In this document: positions 9,760 to 26,343 of the stretch, piece after piece | Numbering within the stretch: position 1 is the first letter of the stretch | Layout: every line of letters starts with the position of its first letter | Origin: Candidatus Hydrogenedentota bacterium | GTDB taxonomy: Bacteria > Hydrogenedentota > Hydrogenedentia > Hydrogenedentales > JAEUWI01 | Reading direction: 5' to 3' | Length of the DNA: 64,000 nucleotides | NCBI GenBank assembly: GCA_016791475.1 | Contig: JAEUWI010000032.1 | Span: 1-64,000, forward strand | Position numbers and translations under genes: made by a program | The notes under the pieces: model-generated | What the model saw: the letters and a program-made list of their open reading frames with translations, nothing else | Told to the model about the DNA's origin: nothing | The model's database searches: none

Positions 9760-11352
9760 TCAGCCCCCGCCGAGGAGTTCCCGCACGCCCGGGGTTACGG
9801 GAAAGGCCGAGCCGAATCGCACGGGTTCCACGTGGCCATCGAGATAGAGGACATTGGCGCTGTCCGGATCACGCCCGAATACACTGGCGGTGACCCGCTC
9901 AAACATGATGGGGATGGCCGCGCGGGTATTGGCCGCGGCCAGGGGATCGCTGCGTTTGGCGACGAAGAAGTACTCCACGTCTTTCTTCAGGCGCCGGAGC
10001 ATTTTGTCCGCCGTATCGATGTCGGATTGGATATCGGGTGGCGTCGGGCTTTCCAGCGCGGATTTGAAGGCCGCCAGGGCCGCTTCGTCGAGCAGGACGT
10101 AGCCGGTGTAGACGTAGGAGCGGGCCATGAGGGCGTGGGCCGTGTTGAAGTCCGGCGGACTCGCTTCGAGGGCGTTTTTCATGGCCTTTACGAGTTCGGG
10201 GTCGTTGAGGCTGGGCCGCACCAGCAGGGCGGGATCTTTAATGTAGCGCGGGTAGAGCTGTCGCAAATCGGGCACCCAGGCGCCGGGCACATCGGTAACC
10301 ATGGGCGGAAACTGGTTGGCTTCCGACTGGGCGCTGTATTCCAGCAGCGCCTTACCGATGGTTTCCAGGTTCTCCGCGCCCGCAGCCTGCCGGGCCGCTT
10401 CCAGAGAGCGGGAAATGGTGGGCAGCAGGATAATGGCGATGATGGCAATAATAAAAATCGGCACGGTGACCTGCATGAAACGGAAGCCCCAGGTGGCGAT
10501 GCGCTCTTCCTGGGCCTCGTGGCCGGCGCGGAGGTGATCTTCCGTCTGCGCGGCCAGGTTTTCGGGGGGATGGACCTCCGGAAGTTCGCGAATGGCTTCC
10601 AGCGTGGCGCTCTCCGCGGCGGCCAGCGCCGCGCCCTCCTTCAGGGCGGCAATGGCGGCGGCCAGCTTTCGCTGGCGTCCGGGCGAAAGCAGATTGAGCT
10701 GTCGGCGCCGGATGTTGTCGCGCAGGCCCTTCGGGACGGGTGAGGCGGTGGCGACCCCGGATGGCTGGGCAATGCGGTCGCAGGCGTCCAGGAGGAGTCT
10801 TTCCGCGCGGCGGCGAGAGAGGTTCAGACTCTCGCCCAGTGCGGCCGGATGCAGACCGACCACGCAGGCCAGCAGCACGGCGGCCCGTTCCTTAAGGGTA
10901 AGGGCTTTCAGGGCGTTCACGAGCGCGGCGTTTCGGTCGTGGCGTTCCGTTTCCACCGCCGACGCGTCATCGTCCCAGGCGGACCATTTGTCATCCCGCG
11001 CGGGGGCCATGCCGCCCCGGAGGATGTTGTCCCAGGAAGAGCGCTTCTGCTGCTGCTGGCGACGGGCGTGTTCCAGGGCTACGAGGGTGGCCGTGCGGAA
11101 GATCCAGTCCTTTACGGAAGGCGCCTTGCGCAGCCGGGCGAGATTGTTGACCGAAAGCGCCAGGGTGCGCTGGAACAATTCCGAAGCGCGCTCGGGATCG
11201 CCGGTGAGCCAATAGAGATAGTTGTAGAGCGGCCGCTCAACATGCTCGATCAGGGGGCGGCACGAGGCGGGATCGCCCTTCTTAATTTCGGCCAGAAGCG
11301 GTCGCGCATCGATATCGGGATTGTTATGGGTAACCTGCGTTTCCGTAGTCAT
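9760..11352 (-). CDS. ECF sigma-like domain fused to a pilin-like helix and H-X9-DG domain
   Basis: A 530-residue protein; the start MTTETQ was preferred over an upstream frame start with low-complexity Pro/Ile residues. Residues ~15-95 resemble sigma70 region 2 (PLYNYLYWLTGDPERASELFQRTL), and ~140-195 resemble region 4 (ALTLKERAAVLLACVVGLHPAALGESL). After a charged linker comes one membrane helix (PIFIIAIIAIILLPTI), immediately followed by SLEAARQAAGAENLETIGKAL, which is strikingly like the N-terminal helix of DUF1559/type II pseudopilins. The C-terminus carries NVLYLDGHVEPVRFG, the pattern of the H-X9-DG pilin-associated domain. Each half is familiar; the fusion is not. Function inferred: a membrane-tethered sigma-like regulator. 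Confidence 0.7.
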   Translation of the reverse strand: MTTETQVTHNNPDIDARPLLAEIKKGDPASCRPLIEHVERPLYNYLYWLTGDPERASELFQRTLALSVNNLARLRKAPSVKDWIFRTATLVALEHARRQQQQKRSSWDNILRGGMAPARDDKWSAWDDDASAVETERHDRNAALVNALKALTLKERAAVLLACVVGLHPAALGESLNLSRRRAERLLLDACDRIAQPSGVATASPVPKGLRDNIRRRQLNLLSPGRQRKLAAAIAALKEGAALAAAESATLEAIRELPEVHPPENLAAQTEDHLRAGHEAQEERIATWGFRFMQVTVPIFIIAIIAIILLPTISRSLEAARQAAGAENLETIGKALLEYSAQSEANQFPPMVTDVPGAWVPDLRQLYPRYIKDPALLVRPSLNDPELVKAMKNALEASPPDFNTAHALMARSYVYTGYVLLDEAALAAFKSALESPTPPDIQSDIDTADKMLRRLKKDVEYFFVAKRSDPLAAANTRAAIPIMFERVTASVFGRDPDSANVLYLDGHVEPVRFGSAFPVTPGVRELLGGG

Positions 11353-18043: not shown

Positions 18044-18147
18044 ATTGCCTACTTTAACCCTTGCGATTTATTCGCGCAACGTGAGCCATCGCACGTCAAC
18101 AAGCCCTTTGATCTTCCCCCCATGTTCCCAAATGCCTCATCGTGCCG

Positions 18148-18173
18148 TCTGTAGTGTACCTTTAAGGAAAAGG
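18148..18173 (+). promoter_or_regulatory. Conserved promoter-like box of sigma-fusion gene 1
   Basis: CTGTAGTGTACCTTTAAGG followed by AAAAGG is identical to the sequence at 21268-21293. In both cases the box ends 25-27 bases before the ATG of a sigma-fusion gene although the flanking sequence is not conserved. Best explained as a shared promoter, possibly recognised by the encoded ECF factors themselves (inference). Confidence 0.6.
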
Positions 18174-18197: not shown

Positions 18198-20984
18198 ATG
18201 CCCCTGGATGACACCGCCCTGCTGGAACGCTGGAAAACCCGGCGCGATGCCGAAGCCTTCGACGAGATCGTTCGCCGATTCGCCGATCAGGTTTTCGGCA
18301 CCTGTCGGCGCATTCTGCGCAACGACGCCGACGCCGAAGAGGTGGCGCAGGAGTGTTTTCTCCTCCTCGTCCGCTCCGGCGGCGAGGTGCGCACGTCCCT
18401 CGGCGGCTGGCTCCACCGGGCGGCCACGACCCGTAGTCTGGATCGCATCCGCCACGAGGCGCGCCGTCGCGCTCGGGAATCGGCCTACGAGCGACATGCG
18501 CCGAAGGCTACCGAAGCCTCGTGGGACGACATCCAGGAGCACGTGGACGCGGCGATCAATCAATTGCCGGAATCCACGCGGGACATGATCGTGGCCCACT
18601 TCCTCGGACGCAAGACCCACGAGGAAATCGCGGAGGAACTAGGGATGAATCGCCGGGCGGTCTCCCAGCGGATCCAACGGGGCCTCGATACCATCCGGCG
18701 GGATTTTGCCCGACGCGGCATCGCCCTCTCCGCCGCCGCCCTCGGCCCGCTCCTTGCGGACAACTTTTCCTCCGCCGCGCCCCTTTCCTTAAAGGCTTCA
18801 CTGGGAAAACTCGCCATCGCCGCCGGAACTGCCGGGTCAGGCGCGGGCGGGACCGCCGCAACCACGAGCCTGATAGGGAGCCTGCTGATCATGAAAATGA
18901 AACTCGTCGCTTTGGCCCTCATAGTGGGTATGGTAGCCGGAGGCGTTTACTGGGGGATGCCCCGGGCCAACGATTCGCCAAAGTCCGATCCCATTCCTGA
19001 AATAATGTTGGCCGATAGGATGGAGCCATCCATACCCACATCAAGCGGCGAGGTCGCCAAGGCGGAGACGGTGCCGACTGCTTCGGAGAGCGATGGCGCC
19101 ATGCCCTCGTTGGAGGATTTGCTCGCCCTTTCCCAAGCCAAACTGGAGGAAGTGCTGGAACAATACCCCGAGATAGCGGACCCTGCACAGTTCGCATCCG
19201 TCTCGGGCACGGTGGTCGATACCAATGGCTATCCCATCGACGGAGCCTATGTGTACGTCATGCCTGAAAGAGGTTGGGGGAGCTTTCCGGACACCGAGGG
19301 ACGCTTAAGGTCCGCTATCAGTGGTGCGGACGGTCGCTACGCGATAGAGGGCATCGACCGCAGCGGATTCTACGCGGTCGGCGCATCGAAATATGGCTAT
19401 GCCGATCAGCGGGTGAAACCGGCCTTGGAGATAGCGCCGGGTGCTCGGAAGAGCGAGATCGACTTTGTCTTGGATTCTGGCGTCCAACTGGAAGGGGTTA
19501 TCCTCAGTAGCTCAGGCAAACCTGTGCCCAGCGCCGTGGTGCAATGCATCGGTACTGCGGCGCGCGATATGGTCTCGCTGGGCCAAGAGAATACCACCGT
19601 AACGGATACGAAGGGTGAATTTACCTTGGGCTTCCCGAAGGACCATACCGATTATGTCGCGGCCTTGCGTGTACATGCCGGGAAGAATGGCCAAGCGACT
19701 TTCGCTGGTGTTCCCATCGACAGCGGTCGGCGCGAGACACTTCGCATGATGCCACCCGCCATTATTCAGGGGACGCTTACATCGGATAGGGGAGAGCCTG
19801 TTCCCCATGGCCGTATCTCATTCGGAGGCCAGAGGAAAATCTCCGCGGCACCCGACGATCCGCCGGGGACGTGGGGAATGCCGCTTTCTTCGGGATTCTT
19901 TACCGCGCAATGCGATTCGGAAGGTCGGTACGCCGTCGCGGTGGACGCCGGGATCGAGTTCCGCGCGCAAGTCGGGGACGAGAATATTCGGATGACTATG
20001 AAACGTCCACTTGTCGCCGCGCTGGCATCGGGCGAAATTCGCGCCTACGACGTAACTGTGGCCACCATGACAATCCAGATAAAAGGCAAAATTCTCGGGC
20101 AGCAGTCCGGCATTCCTGTTGATGTGCTTGGCGGCTTTCGTGTTTCGGTCGTCACCGACACAGCCATTCACATGGATGCGCAGACCCATTCCGCTTTCTC
20201 GCTCTCATTTCCTTTGGCGGAAGGACGCTACCAGTTGCAGGCGCGTTACGAGTTCAATGATTTTGCAGCGGGCCCCCGCTCGGAACCCGTTGACTTGTCG
20301 TCTGATGGTAAAAACTACATTGAGCTTGTCGTACCTGATCCCCAGGTCTTTACCCTCCGCGCCGTGGATGGAAACGGGAACCCCGTCGAAGGTGCGCGCG
20401 TGAATGTTATGACCAGCACCATCGAGAACTATCAGACCAACGAGCTGACCAACGCAGATGGCCGCATCGACGGTCCCATCACTATGCCGCCCGATTGCGG
20501 TGCCCGCCTGTGGCTTGAAAAACCCGGCTACGCCCCGGCTTGGGGCGCGATCCACGAAAATCAGAGCCCCGGCACGATTCAGGCCGAGGACTTGATCGTG
20601 CTCACGGCGAGTGCGGGCTTTGAAGGGGAACTCGCGGACGCGGAGGGCAACCCCGTCGCGAACGCGGAATTGAGCATCACGCTCACCAGCCCACGAGGCC
20701 AGAGCTGGCCACTCGAAACGACAACGGATGGCGAAGGGCACTTCACCGTGGTGGATCAGGCCCCGGCCGAAGTCGTGGACATCGAAATTGTGATCAAGCC
20801 GCAACCTGGCCCGGTGGAGTTTCGCGTGGGAAATGATGTGGTCACCCTTCCAAGCCCAATTGGAAGCGAGCCTTTCGAGCCCGATCTTCGGGTCTGGAGC
20901 GCGGAGCAGATCGCGCTGGAGGCCAAGACGATCACCGACCTGGGGAATATGTCGCTGGTCGAGGAGGGGCCGCAAGATGAATAG
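18198..20984 (+). CDS. ECF sigma factor fused to carboxypeptidase-regulatory-like repeats (1)
   Basis: A 928-residue protein starting at MPLDDTA. Residues ~1-95 are sigma70 region 2 (EIVRRFADQVFGTCRRILRN, DAEEVAQECFLLLV) and ~120-175 region 4 with a helix-turn-helix (THEEIAEELGMNRRAVSQRI). A Gly/Ala-rich linker with LSLKASLGKLAIAAG leads to one membrane helix (~235-254, LVALALIVGMVAGGVYWG). The remaining ~670 residues hold at least five CarboxypepD_reg/CnaB-like beta modules, each opening with G-x-V-x-D-x-x-G-x-P-V (about 333, 430, 521, 723, 808). Predicted topology: sigma domain inside, repeats outside. ECF factors with C-terminal extensions are known in Planctomycetes; regulation by proteolytic release or by outside binding is inference. 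Confidence 0.85.
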   Translation: MPLDDTALLERWKTRRDAEAFDEIVRRFADQVFGTCRRILRNDADAEEVAQECFLLLVRSGGEVRTSLGGWLHRAATTRSLDRIRHEARRRARESAYERHAPKATEASWDDIQEHVDAAINQLPESTRDMIVAHFLGRKTHEEIAEELGMNRRAVSQRIQRGLDTIRRDFARRGIALSAAALGPLLADNFSSAAPLSLKASLGKLAIAAGTAGSGAGGTAATTSLIGSLLIMKMKLVALALIVGMVAGGVYWGMPRANDSPKSDPIPEIMLADRMEPSIPTSSGEVAKAETVPTASESDGAMPSLEDLLALSQAKLEEVLEQYPEIADPAQFASVSGTVVDTNGYPIDGAYVYVMPERGWGSFPDTEGRLRSAISGADGRYAIEGIDRSGFYAVGASKYGYADQRVKPALEIAPGARKSEIDFVLDSGVQLEGVILSSSGKPVPSAVVQCIGTAARDMVSLGQENTTVTDTKGEFTLGFPKDHTDYVAALRVHAGKNGQATFAGVPIDSGRRETLRMMPPAIIQGTLTSDRGEPVPHGRISFGGQRKISAAPDDPPGTWGMPLSSGFFTAQCDSEGRYAVAVDAGIEFRAQVGDENIRMTMKRPLVAALASGEIRAYDVTVATMTIQIKGKILGQQSGIPVDVLGGFRVSVVTDTAIHMDAQTHSAFSLSFPLAEGRYQLQARYEFNDFAAGPRSEPVDLSSDGKNYIELVVPDPQVFTLRAVDGNGNPVEGARVNVMTSTIENYQTNELTNADGRIDGPITMPPDCGARLWLEKPGYAPAWGAIHENQSPGTIQAEDLIVLTASAGFEGELADAEGNPVANAELSITLTSPRGQSWPLETTTDGEGHFTVVDQAPAEVVDIEIVIKPQPGPVEFRVGNDVVTLPSPIGSEPFEPDLRVWSAEQIALEAKTITDLGNMSLVEEGPQDE

Positions 20985-21000
20985 GGAGGGGCCGAATAGA

Positions 21001-21181
21001 GGATCTCGGACATTCCTGTCCGAGGCAAAACGCACGCTGATATCGACGAGGCCCGGCGAACTTGTCCAGTGATCCCGCCTTGCCAAAGTTGTGACTTCTG
21101 ATGCTTCAGGCTTGCTCGCACACAGCGAATGCGTCTTCTTGCCCAAGCGCGCTCTGCCTCGGACAAGAATGTCCAAGATCC
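21001..21181. repeat. ~180-bp element with 33-base terminal inverted repeats
   Basis: Bases 21001-21033 and the complement of 21149-21181 match at 29 of 33 positions (core CTCGGACA.GAATGTCC, GGATCTCGG start). The element fills most of the 332-base gap between the two sigma-fusion genes, contains no gene, and is built like a MITE or a large palindromic repeat. Confidence 0.7.
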
Positions 21182-21267
21182 GTTGTGCCGCGAAGTCCAA
21201 TGTACGTCCATCTGCTCAAATTTGCGGTCCCCCGAAATTTCCCCTTCCCAAATCGTCTCCGGCTGCA

Positions 21268-21293
21268 ACTGTAGTGTACCTTTAAGGAAAAGG
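21268..21293 (+). promoter_or_regulatory. Conserved promoter-like box of sigma-fusion gene 2
   Basis: Same sequence as at 18148-18173, ending about 24 bases before the ATG at 21317. It follows the inverted-repeat element, so the second gene has its own promoter rather than depending on read-through. Confidence 0.6.
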
Positions 21294-21316
21294 GCACAAG
21301 GAGCGCCACACCCGCC

Positions 21317-24025
21317 ATGCCAATCGATGACGCCACGCTGCTGGAACGCTGGACCACGCGCCGGGACGCGGAAGCCTTCAACGAGATCGTTGAGCGCTTT
21401 GCGGACCAGGTCTATGGCACGTGCAAGCGTATCCTCCGCAACGACGCCGACGCCGAGGATGCGGCACAGGAGTGCTTTCTTCTGCTGGTGCGCGCGGGGG
21501 GCGGCGTCCGATCATCGCTGGGCGGCTGGCTCCATGGCGCGGCCACGAATCTTTGCCGGGACCGCATCCGCCGGGAGATCAATCGCCGTGCGCGTGAATC
21601 GGCCTACAGCGCTGCCGTGCCGAAGGCGACCGAGACCACGTGGGACGACATCCAGACGCATGTGGACGCGGCGATTGACGCGTTGCCCGGGGCAACGCGC
21701 GACGCGATTGTGGCCCACTTTCTCGGGCGGCGCACCCACGCGGAGATCGCCGCCGATCTACGCATCGGTCGGCGCGCGGTCACCTACCGCATCCAGGGCG
21801 GCCTCGACGCCATCCGTCGCGATCTTGCGCGGAAGGGCGTCACCCTCTCCGCCGCTGCGCTTGGGCCGCTCTTCGCGGCGAACGCCTCCACCGCACCCCT
21901 TTCCTTAAAGGCTTCATTGGGAAAACTCGCCATCGCCGCCGGGACCACCGGTAGCGCTGGCACCGTCACAACCACAAGCCTGATAGGAAGCCTGCTGATC
22001 ATGAAAACGAAAATCTCCATTGCCGCCATTGTCCTCGCGCTCCTCGGTGTGGGTGTCTATGTGGCTTCCACGCGACATGAGCCCGTTGTAGAGGTGCCAA
22101 ACCCTCAGGCCATTGCGGAGCCCACAATCCCGACCGCCATCGCAGCGGTGCCCGAAGCCGAGCCCGCACCGGCACCGGTGGAACCGACCGCGACACCGGC
22201 CGATGTAACTGGTGAGACTTCGGAGCTGGACGATTTGCTCGCCCTCTCTCACAGTGTGTTGGACGATGCGATGCGGCTTTATCCACGGATAGAAAAGCCC
22301 GAGGACTACGCTTCGATATCGGGCTCGGTGGTGGATCAGGCGGGGTATCCCGTTCCCAATGCGACGGTGGCGCTGACCCCATCGAGTTCGTGGGGCCGTC
22401 TCCCCGGTGCCAGTGATCTATCCCGCGTCGTAAGCACGAATGCGGACGGAACCTACACAATTGACGCTATCGACCATGGGGGAAGCTTCTGGGTGGCCGC
22501 GTCCAAGCCGGGCTATGCGGACGTGGCGCGAGGCGAGTCCTCCAGTGCGCCCATCGACATCGCCGCGGGAAAAAGTGCGGCGGGTATCGACTTCACCCTG
22601 TCCACCGGCCCCACGATTGAGGGGCGGCTCTTGACTGCGGCGGGCGAACCGGTGTCCGATGGCCTGTTGCAGACGCTATGCCTGACCGGGCCCAGTAGCG
22701 GTTCCATGATCCAGAACATTTCAGCCCGAACTGATGCGTCGGGTTATTTCACGATGGGTTTCGACGAAAAGTCCCGTGGTATGGTCGTGGCTCTGCGTGC
22801 CCAGTCGCCGCTCCATGGCGCGGCAACTTTTCCCACCGTGTCGGTGCTGGACGACCATGCCATCGAACTCCGCCTCTCGGCCCCCGCCATCATTCAAGGT
22901 ACGGTGAAATACAAGACTGGCGCGCCTGTGCCCGGTGCGGTTCTCAACTTCTACGGCAGCAAGCGCGTTGACGTGGCACAGGCGGACGGTGTCGATCCCT
23001 GGCGGAATCCGTCGAGTGCGGGTTATTTCAGCGCACGATGCGACATCAAGGGACAGTATGCCGTCACTGTGGACGCGGGGCTGGATTTCGAGGCGGATGT
23101 CAGTACCAATGCGATGAGGCAAACCGGAAAGCGCGAGAATCTGGCCGCGTTGGCCCCTGGGGAATCGAGAACTTTCAACCCCACCGTGGAATCGGATATG
23201 GCGACCGTACAGGCCACCGTCGTGGGCACGCCTACCGGAAAACCCTTTGAAGTGTATGTGCCTTTCACCGTCGTGGCACAGCGTGACGGCGAGGATATCG
23301 CCTACGGCCAGCACGATGGGCCCAATGCGGTGAAGCTCTTGTTGGCGGGCAAGGCCAGCACGTACACGTTTCAAGCGCGCTACATGTTCAATCTGGACGT
23401 GAAGGGCGATCCCTCAAAGCCCTATGACCTTGCACCAGGCGACCATATTGATATCGAGGTTAATCTTCCAGATCCTCAGCGTTTCGCCGTGCGCGCCGTT
23501 GATTCCGCCGGAAACCCCGTCGCGGGTGCCGCACTGCATTACATCACCACAACGACCGGCACCTTCGATCCCCGAATTCTGACGAATGACGATGGGCGCG
23601 CGGACCGTATTTTGCTGATGCCACCCGATTGCGGCGCACGCATCTGGCTCGAAAAGCCGGGCTACGCCAACGCCTGGGGCACACTTTTTGAAGATCAAAG
23701 CGCGGGCACCGTCCACCCCGAAGATGTGATCGTGTTTTCCTCCGGCGCGGGCTTTGAGGGGGTCCTTTCCGATTCGGAAGACAAGATCCTTTCGGATGTC
23801 GTGCTGAAGATTACCGTCTCCAACACCGACGGGCAGTCCTGGCCGCTCCAATCGACCACGGACGCTGAAGGCCGTTTTACCATCGTCGATCAAGCTCCTG
23901 CCGAAGTGGTGGATATCGCAATTTCCCGTCAGGACGGTGAAGGCGGAATCTGGAGCGCCGAACAAATCACGTTGGAGGCCAACGCAATCACCGCGCTGGG
24001 AACGCTCAAGCTGGTTGAGGAATAG
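21317..24025 (+). CDS. ECF sigma factor fused to carboxypeptidase-regulatory-like repeats (2)
   Basis: A 902-residue paralogue of the preceding sigma fusion. Sigma region 2 (EIVERFADQVYGTCKRILRN, DAEDAAQECFLLLV) and region 4 (THAEIAADLRIGRRAVTYRI) are almost superimposable on gene 1. The Gly/Ala linker with LSLKASLGKLAIAAG and a membrane helix (~232-250, ISIAAIVLALLGVGVYVAS) follow. The outside part is less similar but keeps repeated beta modules such as SISGSVVDQAGYPVPNATV and VRAVDSAGNPVAGA, and a shared C-terminal block ending QITLEANAITALG. A tandem duplication with faster change in the outer part fits the pattern. No separate anti-sigma gene is next to either copy. Confidence 0.85.
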   Translation: MPIDDATLLERWTTRRDAEAFNEIVERFADQVYGTCKRILRNDADAEDAAQECFLLLVRAGGGVRSSLGGWLHGAATNLCRDRIRREINRRARESAYSAAVPKATETTWDDIQTHVDAAIDALPGATRDAIVAHFLGRRTHAEIAADLRIGRRAVTYRIQGGLDAIRRDLARKGVTLSAAALGPLFAANASTAPLSLKASLGKLAIAAGTTGSAGTVTTTSLIGSLLIMKTKISIAAIVLALLGVGVYVASTRHEPVVEVPNPQAIAEPTIPTAIAAVPEAEPAPAPVEPTATPADVTGETSELDDLLALSHSVLDDAMRLYPRIEKPEDYASISGSVVDQAGYPVPNATVALTPSSSWGRLPGASDLSRVVSTNADGTYTIDAIDHGGSFWVAASKPGYADVARGESSSAPIDIAAGKSAAGIDFTLSTGPTIEGRLLTAAGEPVSDGLLQTLCLTGPSSGSMIQNISARTDASGYFTMGFDEKSRGMVVALRAQSPLHGAATFPTVSVLDDHAIELRLSAPAIIQGTVKYKTGAPVPGAVLNFYGSKRVDVAQADGVDPWRNPSSAGYFSARCDIKGQYAVTVDAGLDFEADVSTNAMRQTGKRENLAALAPGESRTFNPTVESDMATVQATVVGTPTGKPFEVYVPFTVVAQRDGEDIAYGQHDGPNAVKLLLAGKASTYTFQARYMFNLDVKGDPSKPYDLAPGDHIDIEVNLPDPQRFAVRAVDSAGNPVAGAALHYITTTTGTFDPRILTNDDGRADRILLMPPDCGARIWLEKPGYANAWGTLFEDQSAGTVHPEDVIVFSSGAGFEGVLSDSEDKILSDVVLKITVSNTDGQSWPLQSTTDAEGRFTIVDQAPAEVVDIAISRQDGEGGIWSAEQITLEANAITALGTLKLVEE

Positions 24026-25467: not shown

Positions 25468-26343
25468 TCAGCGAGCATCCTTCTCGTCGTGTGGCTCGAA
25501 CGACTCTGTGCGTTTCGGAAGTTTCTTTTCTTCCGACGTCAACCGGCGTTCTATTTTCTTCAGATCCTCCGAGGGGGGCAGATTCTCCGGCACAATCTTT
25601 CGATCAAGAAGCAACTTGCGCACATCTTTGTTGTTCTTGGTATGCTCCGCCGTGATCTTCGGCTCGGTTCGCAGATCGTCGCGTTTGATGTTGAAATTCG
25701 TGATTTCGTTGGCAAAGTCTTTCGCTTTGATGGTGATTGCGGGCAAGAAATCCGCCAGTGCACGGCCCTTCGAGACGCCAAGGCGTTTCTTCATATCGTT
25801 GGTCGTATTGCCGCCGAATAACGCCATGTCTCCCTTGCTCCGAATGCGCGCGAAGCTCTGCCCGTCTCGCAAGCGTTCAAATATTATACCCGAGAGCTCT
25901 CGTTCGGATTGGGTCAGTTTCTTCCGCGCGCTGAGGCGCTCGACTTCGGCCAGTCGCTTTTCGATTACTTCCTGTTTGCGCGTTTGTACGGCAAAGTAGG
26001 TTTGCGCAAAGGCCACCGGGGCCTTGGTGGAATCGCCATTCTGCGCGATGAGGTAGCAGGCATAGCGGGTCAACATGATGTCGTCCACATCGCGCTGAGC
26101 ACCTGAACCTATGTTCACCATTGTGCGCACGCGCGCAAAATGGTCCTCCGCAGGATAACCCGACATCTCACAGGCTTTTACCGCTTTTTCGACCACCGGC
26201 TCAAAGTTTCTCCAAGTCCGGTAACCCAACAAGGGGAGAAGATCGCGGGCCATCCAGAATTCGATATCAGAGTCGTCGTCACGCCTTACTATTTCCTCGA
26301 ACTCGGCATGAAGCTCAACTATCTTCTCTCGTTTCATCTCCAT
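25468..26343 (-). CDS. dinD: DNA-damage-inducible protein D (DinD-like)
   Basis: A 291-residue protein. The N-terminal half is a BRO-N-type domain (DIEFWMARDLLPLLGYRTWRNF), followed by the block DIMLTRYACYLIAQNGDSTKAPVAFAQTYFA that is highly typical of DinD. In E. coli DinD is SOS-induced and binds/inhibits RecA filaments. No LexA box was seen upstream here, so SOS control is not shown. Such genes spread by horizontal transfer and often stand alone, as this one does. Confidence 0.85.
   Translation of the reverse strand: MEMKREKIVELHAEFEEIVRRDDDSDIEFWMARDLLPLLGYRTWRNFEPVVEKAVKACEMSGYPAEDHFARVRTMVNIGSGAQRDVDDIMLTRYACYLIAQNGDSTKAPVAFAQTYFAVQTRKQEVIEKRLAEVERLSARKKLTQSERELSGIIFERLRDGQSFARIRSKGDMALFGGNTTNDMKKRLGVSKGRALADFLPAITIKAKDFANEITNFNIKRDDLRTEPKITAEHTKNNKDVRKLLLDRKIVPENLPPSEDLKKIERRLTSEEKKLPKRTESFEPHDEKDAR

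Follow-up and report, generated by a model that had tools for sequence, protein, structure and literature searches.

Predicted membrane-tethered ECF sigma factors in tandem, and a candidate promoter motif shared by their relatives, in a Hydrogenedentota genome

The window, a 64,000 nt stretch of contig JAEUWI010000032.1 from a Candidatus Hydrogenedentota bacterium (assembly GCA_016791475.1), carries on its forward strand a tandem pair of genes for tethered ECF sigma factors, copy 1 (18198–20984, 928 aa) and copy 2 (21317–24025, 902 aa), whose products are 51 % identical. The mechanically called ORF of copy 1 extends upstream to 17859, a start that we reject since the alignment with copy 2, the ribosome-binding site and the promoter element all favour 18198: the N-termini align there as MPLDD and MPIDD, a GGAG ribosome-binding site lies ahead of this position, and the promoter element at 18149–18173 would fall within the longer frame. 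The genes flanking the pair encode a GFO/IDH/MocA oxidoreductase and a URO-D protein, both on the opposite strand, and there is no anti-sigma gene adjacent to the pair, as the initial annotation had stated. Also in the window is a reverse-strand gene (25468–26343) for a Bro-N protein that matches the PADLOC candidate defence model PDC-S13 (E-value 4.5e-111).

The N-terminal part of each protein matches the two conserved regions of an ECF sigma factor at or above the Pfam cut-offs. Region 2 (PF04542) lies at 18267–18467 in copy 1 (residues 24–90, 37.6 bits) and at 21386–21577 in copy 2 (residues 24–87, 42.9 bits); region 4 (PF08281) lies at 18543–18686 in copy 1 (residues 116–163, 47 bits) and at 21662–21796 in copy 2 (residues 116–160), where the score is exactly that of the cut-off (25.7/25.7). 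Both also exceed the cut-off of 42.9 for the sigma70-ECF family TIGR02937 (72.7 for copy 1 and 53.3 for copy 2), and with regions 2 and 4 present and regions 1.1 and 3 absent they belong among the ECF (group 4) factors. The sigma domains are thus predicted to be intact, in agreement with the initial annotation. Region 4 is followed by a cytoplasmic juxtamembrane linker (18723–18899, about residues 176–234, in copy 1; 21842–22012 in copy 2) and then by a membrane helix, at 18900–18953 in copy 1 (about residues 235–252, by hydropathy) and at 22013–22069 in copy 2 (residues 233–251, by hydropathy and in an AlphaFold2 model). This is the single strongly hydrophobic segment of each protein (residues ~229–252 by hydropathy). 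The C-terminal two thirds consist of an outer part of ~600 aa with four CarboxypepD_reg stretches per copy, a CarboxypepD_reg/CnaB-like beta-sandwich array that spans 19197–20957 in copy 1 (from residue 334) and 22313–24010 in copy 2 (residues 333–898).

The AlphaFold2 model of copy 2 (pLDDT 83, from 71 aligned sequences) places these elements in the order sigma2, sigma4, two short helices (179–188 and 195–210), a flexible, disordered stretch, the helix at 233–251, a disordered stalk (252–299), and a chain of beta-sandwiches from residue 330 to the C-terminus. By Foldseek the inner part of the model matches SigW, and the outer part the repeats of pilins, adhesins and macroglobulins; with VIA-align a smaller model matches SigW best (Z 13.6, 92 residues, rmsd 2.4) and also region 2 of E. 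coli sigmaE, and the modelled region 4 of copy 2 aligns with its counterpart in solved ECF sigma structures. The mean net charge in the clade proteins is +1.8 before the helix and -0.75 after it, which fits a topology with the sigma domain inside and the repeats outside. Neither protein has a zf-HC2 or FecR domain (Pfam, E-values up to 1), and the H...C..C zinc-finger pattern is absent from the linkers of both copies. The membrane anchor and the long outer beta-repeats of the initial annotation are therefore borne out, and as sigma domain, anchor and outer repeats occur together with no anti-sigma gene nearby, sensor, anchor and sigma factor would be united in one polypeptide. Each member of the pair may be regarded as a predicted one-polypeptide sigma receptor, with a cytoplasmic sigma domain, one membrane helix and a beta-sandwich chain outside the cell membrane; these three elements, which define a membrane-tethered sigma factor, are all present in one chain.

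The two copies have not diverged evenly along their length. The linker following region 4, about 54–55 residues long, is 83 % identical between them, and the membrane helix (18882–18953 compared with 22013–22069) only 29 %. In the sigma2 region dN is 0.14 and dS 1.3, and in the outer part dN is 0.55 and dS about 1.5, near saturation; the resulting dN/dS is low for the sigma portion and moderate for the outer one. The sigma domain is under purifying selection, and the sigma regions are the best-conserved portion of the clade proteins. Part of the linker is conserved almost as well: over 64 members its mean entropy is 2.2 compared with 2.0 for region 4.2. It carries a juxtamembrane motif, P..L...LGK.AL.G (P..L...LGK.A..G in copy 1), and the residues that the linker keeps are L182, P194, L197, L201, G202, K/R203, A205, L206 and G208 in copy 2 numbering; P194, L182 and K203 (or R) are each kept in 60 of the 64 members, and L197 and A205 in 54 each, part of these counts being taken from automatic alignments. 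Beyond this module the linker becomes variable, as does the membrane helix, and a long, flexible, Ala/Gly-rich stretch separates the two. We infer that the module may stand in for an anti-sigma domain.

At least 14 tethered sigma proteins are encoded in this genome, in which Sigma70_r2 is found in 44 places. Nine of them belong to the same clade as the window pair, namely the pair itself, the proteins of loci L029–L033 and a second pair at L034; four come from other sigma clades (L035–L038, of which L038 has a possible frameshift), and the remaining one is encoded in the window at 9760–11352. The pair's clade is present in 31 of 68 phylum genomes (E-value ≤1e-50), with a maximum of 14 copies per genome. 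All 68 genomes examined fall in one single order, which makes the Planctomycetes frame of the initial annotation doubtful: Planctomycetota in GTDB comprise more than one order, and a phylum with a single order would fit Hydrogenedentota. Several of the loci lie at contig ends. Regions 2 and 4 and a long C-terminal extension are present in all 67 clade relatives that were read out, and a clear helix at residue ~205–255 in all but one (L126, where it is weak); a second strongly hydrophobic segment beyond residue 300 was seen in none of 76 fused proteins. Since it is kept in these 67 relatives, the architecture is more than a chance arrangement. The outer part is of CarboxypepD_reg type in 54 of the 67 and contains STN or F5/8-type C domains in the others, and the arrays of paralogues differ widely in length and type; judging from these sequences, the outer parts appear to be interchangeable across the clade. 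One pattern-based scan of a species-level genome collection, which is silent on absence, returned a single weak match to the sigma part only, and a plasmid collection gave no match.

In a tree of the sigma domains the window pair groups with a single-copy relative from a congener (L100), and further tandem pairs are seen at L034 in the same genome and at L111 in another genome of the phylum (G003). The tandem duplication had been put forward as a novelty of this locus, a view that does not survive the finding of a second pair in the genome, a third in G003 and a family spread over the order; the pairs at L034 and L111 suggest instead that the family has expanded by tandem duplication more than once.

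The absence of an anti-sigma gene from the pair is put into context by the rest of the genome. By comparison of coordinates, eight of its nine zf-HC2 matches have a soluble ECF gene no more than about 600 bp away, and none of the nine adjoins a fused sigma gene, so the missing anti-sigma gene at the pair appears both real and meaningful. Two kinds of ECF factor are thus found in one cell, soluble ones, some of them beside a zinc-finger anti-sigma gene, and fused ones. Canonical pairs of an ECF factor and a membrane-bound zinc-finger anti-sigma factor have the same overall wiring as the window proteins, but are encoded by two genes, with the anti-sigma factor as a protein of its own. An example in this genome is L299 (2300–3873, on C3), where the stop codon of a gene for a 202-aa soluble ECF factor overlaps the start of a gene for a protein with a zinc finger, a membrane segment and an H-X9-DG element; this partner is probably the anti-sigma factor of the pair, its outer part being pilin-like.

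Locus L299 is the split counterpart of the third tethered sigma-like protein of the window (9760–11352, reverse strand), which is of related design and belongs to a different clade. It consists of region 2, a region 4-like part, a type IV pseudopilin-like helix and an H-X9-DG-like end, and has orthologues in two congeners (58 % and 44 % identical). Just before its helix is a possible prepilin-peptidase site, TWG|FRFMQV, and one might speculate that a cut at the G–F junction would free the sigma part. Other departures from the usual form were seen among the relatives. At L306 (1111–2910, in G041) a clade member of 351 aa is reduced to sigma domain, linker, helix and short tail, and a separate H-X9-DG gene begins 3 nt downstream of it. 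At L298 (2038–5336) a sigma gene is joined by a GTGA overlap to a gene for a membrane segment plus repeats, and at L295 (2856–5671) there is a frameshift within the linker; these two may be split versions of the fusion, or assembly errors. Seven loci (L035, L036, L037, L153, L154, L155 and L157) have sigma domains of other clades mounted on the same type of helix and outer part without the clade motif, from which it follows that sigma–membrane fusions may have arisen more than once.

The two genes of the pair are preceded by an upstream motif (18129–18173 for copy 1 and 21249–21293 for copy 2) in which 25 of 25 nucleotides are identical between the copies (18149–18173 and 21269–21293), with about 30 % matching in the bases that flank this element. 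A scattered genomic repeat was considered and rejected, because the 25-nt element occurs only twice in the whole genome, both times at the window pair. The orthologue in a congener carries CTGTGGTGTACCTTTAAGGAATGG at the corresponding element. The initial annotation contained neither this motif, nor the juxtamembrane one, nor the tethered sigma protein at 9760–11352. A Gibbs sampler applied to the upstream regions of the clade (the best restarts gave equal scores) returned a motif of about 34 nt that consists of CCAATT, then GCGGYGTC, then ATTA-GGGTAGAAT, and has 14.6 bits compared with 7.9–8.3 bits in control gene sets and shuffles. The median leave-one-out score is 14.2 compared with 0.0 in 219 control genes, a difference whose significance is indicative only, the rows being related to one another. 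With 40 held-out promoters, from genomes outside the training set and chosen without regard to the motif, a score of ≥10 was reached at 28, compared with one of 74 windows taken 100–300 nt farther upstream of the same genes and two of the 219 control genes. Ten of this genome's soluble ECF genes were scored, and the motif was found at none of them (best score 4.5), nor at fused genes of other sigma clades (best score 8.6). The control genes, the farther-upstream windows and the soluble ECF genes together lead us to reject a general promoter of the phylum; the motif is a clade-specific candidate promoter class that generalizes to held-out genomes.

The position profile has conserved blocks around −4 to 5, 14–21 and 28–33, followed by a G-rich ribosome-binding site. 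The third block has the sequence GTAGAA and is similar to GTAAAA, an element that region 2 of E. coli sigmaE binds (title of PDB 5or5). The spacing of the blocks does not fit a standard ECF −35/−10 promoter, which we reject, and the −10 block is for this reason left unassigned. A search for a wider regulon with a degenerate pattern at three mismatches did no better than its reversed control. A motif profile search of 12 genomes recovered mostly clade promoters and no convincing further target gene; this applies also to the non-clade matches at L174, L183, L208 (which points into the end of a neighbouring gene), L212 and L219. No neighbouring gene recurs in more than eight clade loci as a potential target. 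The simplest reading of the motif would be that clade members activate their own genes or those of one another. A different sigma factor, or another DNA-binding protein that governs the whole clade, could also read it, in which case there would be no self-amplification; we regard this as plausible, though on balance it probably does not hold. It would account for three blocks spaced unlike those of a standard ECF promoter and for one motif serving paralogues with quite different sigma domains; however, the motif is limited to the clade and missing at the other sigma genes scored, its GTAGAA block is close to the sigmaE element, and autoregulation is common among ECF factors (PMC5826349).

The initial annotation had regarded the C-terminal extension as novel, but fusions of sigma factor, membrane segment and sensor are already known, with IutY demonstrated experimentally (PMC5411451; PMC5826349; PMC8999054). 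IutY of Pseudomonas putida (ECF243) is a 374-aa protein whose sigma domain is freed by the proteases Prc and RseP and whose periplasmic anti-sigma domain cooperates with an adjacent TonB-dependent receptor (PMC5411451). Like IutY, the window proteins combine a cytosolic ECF sigma domain, a single membrane helix and a C-terminal outer domain in one polypeptide; unlike it, they have outer beta-repeats and metabolic flanking genes, the neighbours being oxidoreductases and URO-D, with no TonB-dependent receptor and no FecR match at the pair. SCO4117 (ECF52) unites a sigma domain, a zinc finger, a helix and a carbohydrate-binding outer module in one chain; its truncated form switches on its own gene (PMC5826349), and proteolytic release and positive autoregulation have been proposed (PMC5826349; PMC8999054). 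This group, which has a proline-rich stalk and a zinc-finger anti-sigma domain, is confined to Actinobacteria. The arrangement of sigma domain, membrane helix and outer module in one chain is common to it, to ECF48 and ECF53 and to the present clade, but between sigma domain and helix both window copies lack the zinc finger of ECF52, ECF48 and ECF53, and the clade has the P..L...LGK.AL.G module instead. A review lists these three groups and IutY among the fusions for which activation by proteolysis is either expected or demonstrated (PMC8999054). A long C-terminal extension on an ECF sigma factor is also a feature of planctomycete ECFs such as ECF57, in which it is WD40-like (PMC8999054); neither window copy has a WD40 match (Pfam). 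Sensor, anchor and sigma factor in one chain is therefore an already known, rare design, and what appears to be new in the clade is the shared promoter motif, the juxtamembrane motif in place of a zinc finger or FecR domain, and the interchangeable outer parts.

The genome encodes an M50 RseP-type protease (C3:120490–122109) and S41 Prc-type proteases in four places, and thus the site-2 and tail-specific proteases on which release of a tethered sigma factor would depend. Both families are near universal in bacteria, so their presence counts for little. Taken together with the precedents of IutY and SCO4117, it nevertheless leads us to favour release and feedback, and the best reading of the pair and its clade, which we hold with modest confidence, is that they are proteolytically released, self-amplifying one-protein sigma receptors. 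In the resting state the sigma domain would be held at the membrane, probably occluded by the conserved, helical juxtamembrane module of ~35 residues. Should the outer chain be altered, be it by a ligand, envelope damage, tension or shedding, periplasmic and intramembrane proteases would be able to cut the tethered protein, and the freed sigma domain would steer RNA polymerase to its targets, its own gene included; the clade-wide promoter class would in this way provide positive feedback on the sigma gene. As the promoter blocks lie off the standard ECF spacing, it is by inference that we assign their recognition to the clade's own sigma factors, and the same applies to the occlusion, the proteolytic release and the signal.

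Cleavage might also be dispensable, with the outer chain shifting or clustering, the module letting go and the still tethered sigma domain recruiting polymerase uncut. The Ala/Gly-rich linker, long and flexible, could give it reach and mobility, but IutY, the only experimentally characterized ECF–membrane fusion, requires cleavage (PMC5411451; PMC8999054), and we consider activity at the membrane unlikely. Another view, to which we would assign quite a low probability, is that the outer part serves mainly in adhesion or envelope structure, and that the sigma domain responds to the assembly or loss of this module and not to a soluble ligand. The resemblance of the outer arrays to Gram-positive pilin and adhesin repeats and the variation among paralogues speak for this, but neither a sorting signal nor a pilus gene that could act as partner was noted beside the pair, and the proposal departs from release and feedback mainly in the signal and not in the wiring. 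That the sigma domains are degenerate and have lost their role in transcription, as the borderline region 4 score of copy 2 might suggest, is highly improbable given a dN far below dS, the sigma regions being the most conserved in the family, and models that match solved ECF sigma structures.

Fused proteins of sigma factor, membrane segment and sensor are few and mostly unstudied. With its many natural copies, one promoter class, a short module and swappable outer parts, this clade would make it directly testable in what way a sigma factor serves as its own receptor, and the promoter motif may be of immediate use as a reporter and for tracing targets in bacteria of which largely the genomes alone are known. 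More tentatively, and with considerable doubt on our part, ECF transmembrane signalling in this phylum may have moved largely to one-protein receptors, of which a genome has up to 14 in this clade, with interchangeable sensors and no classical anti-sigma domain, which would be inhibited by a new module and served by a shared promoter that amplifies their own expression or that of one another.
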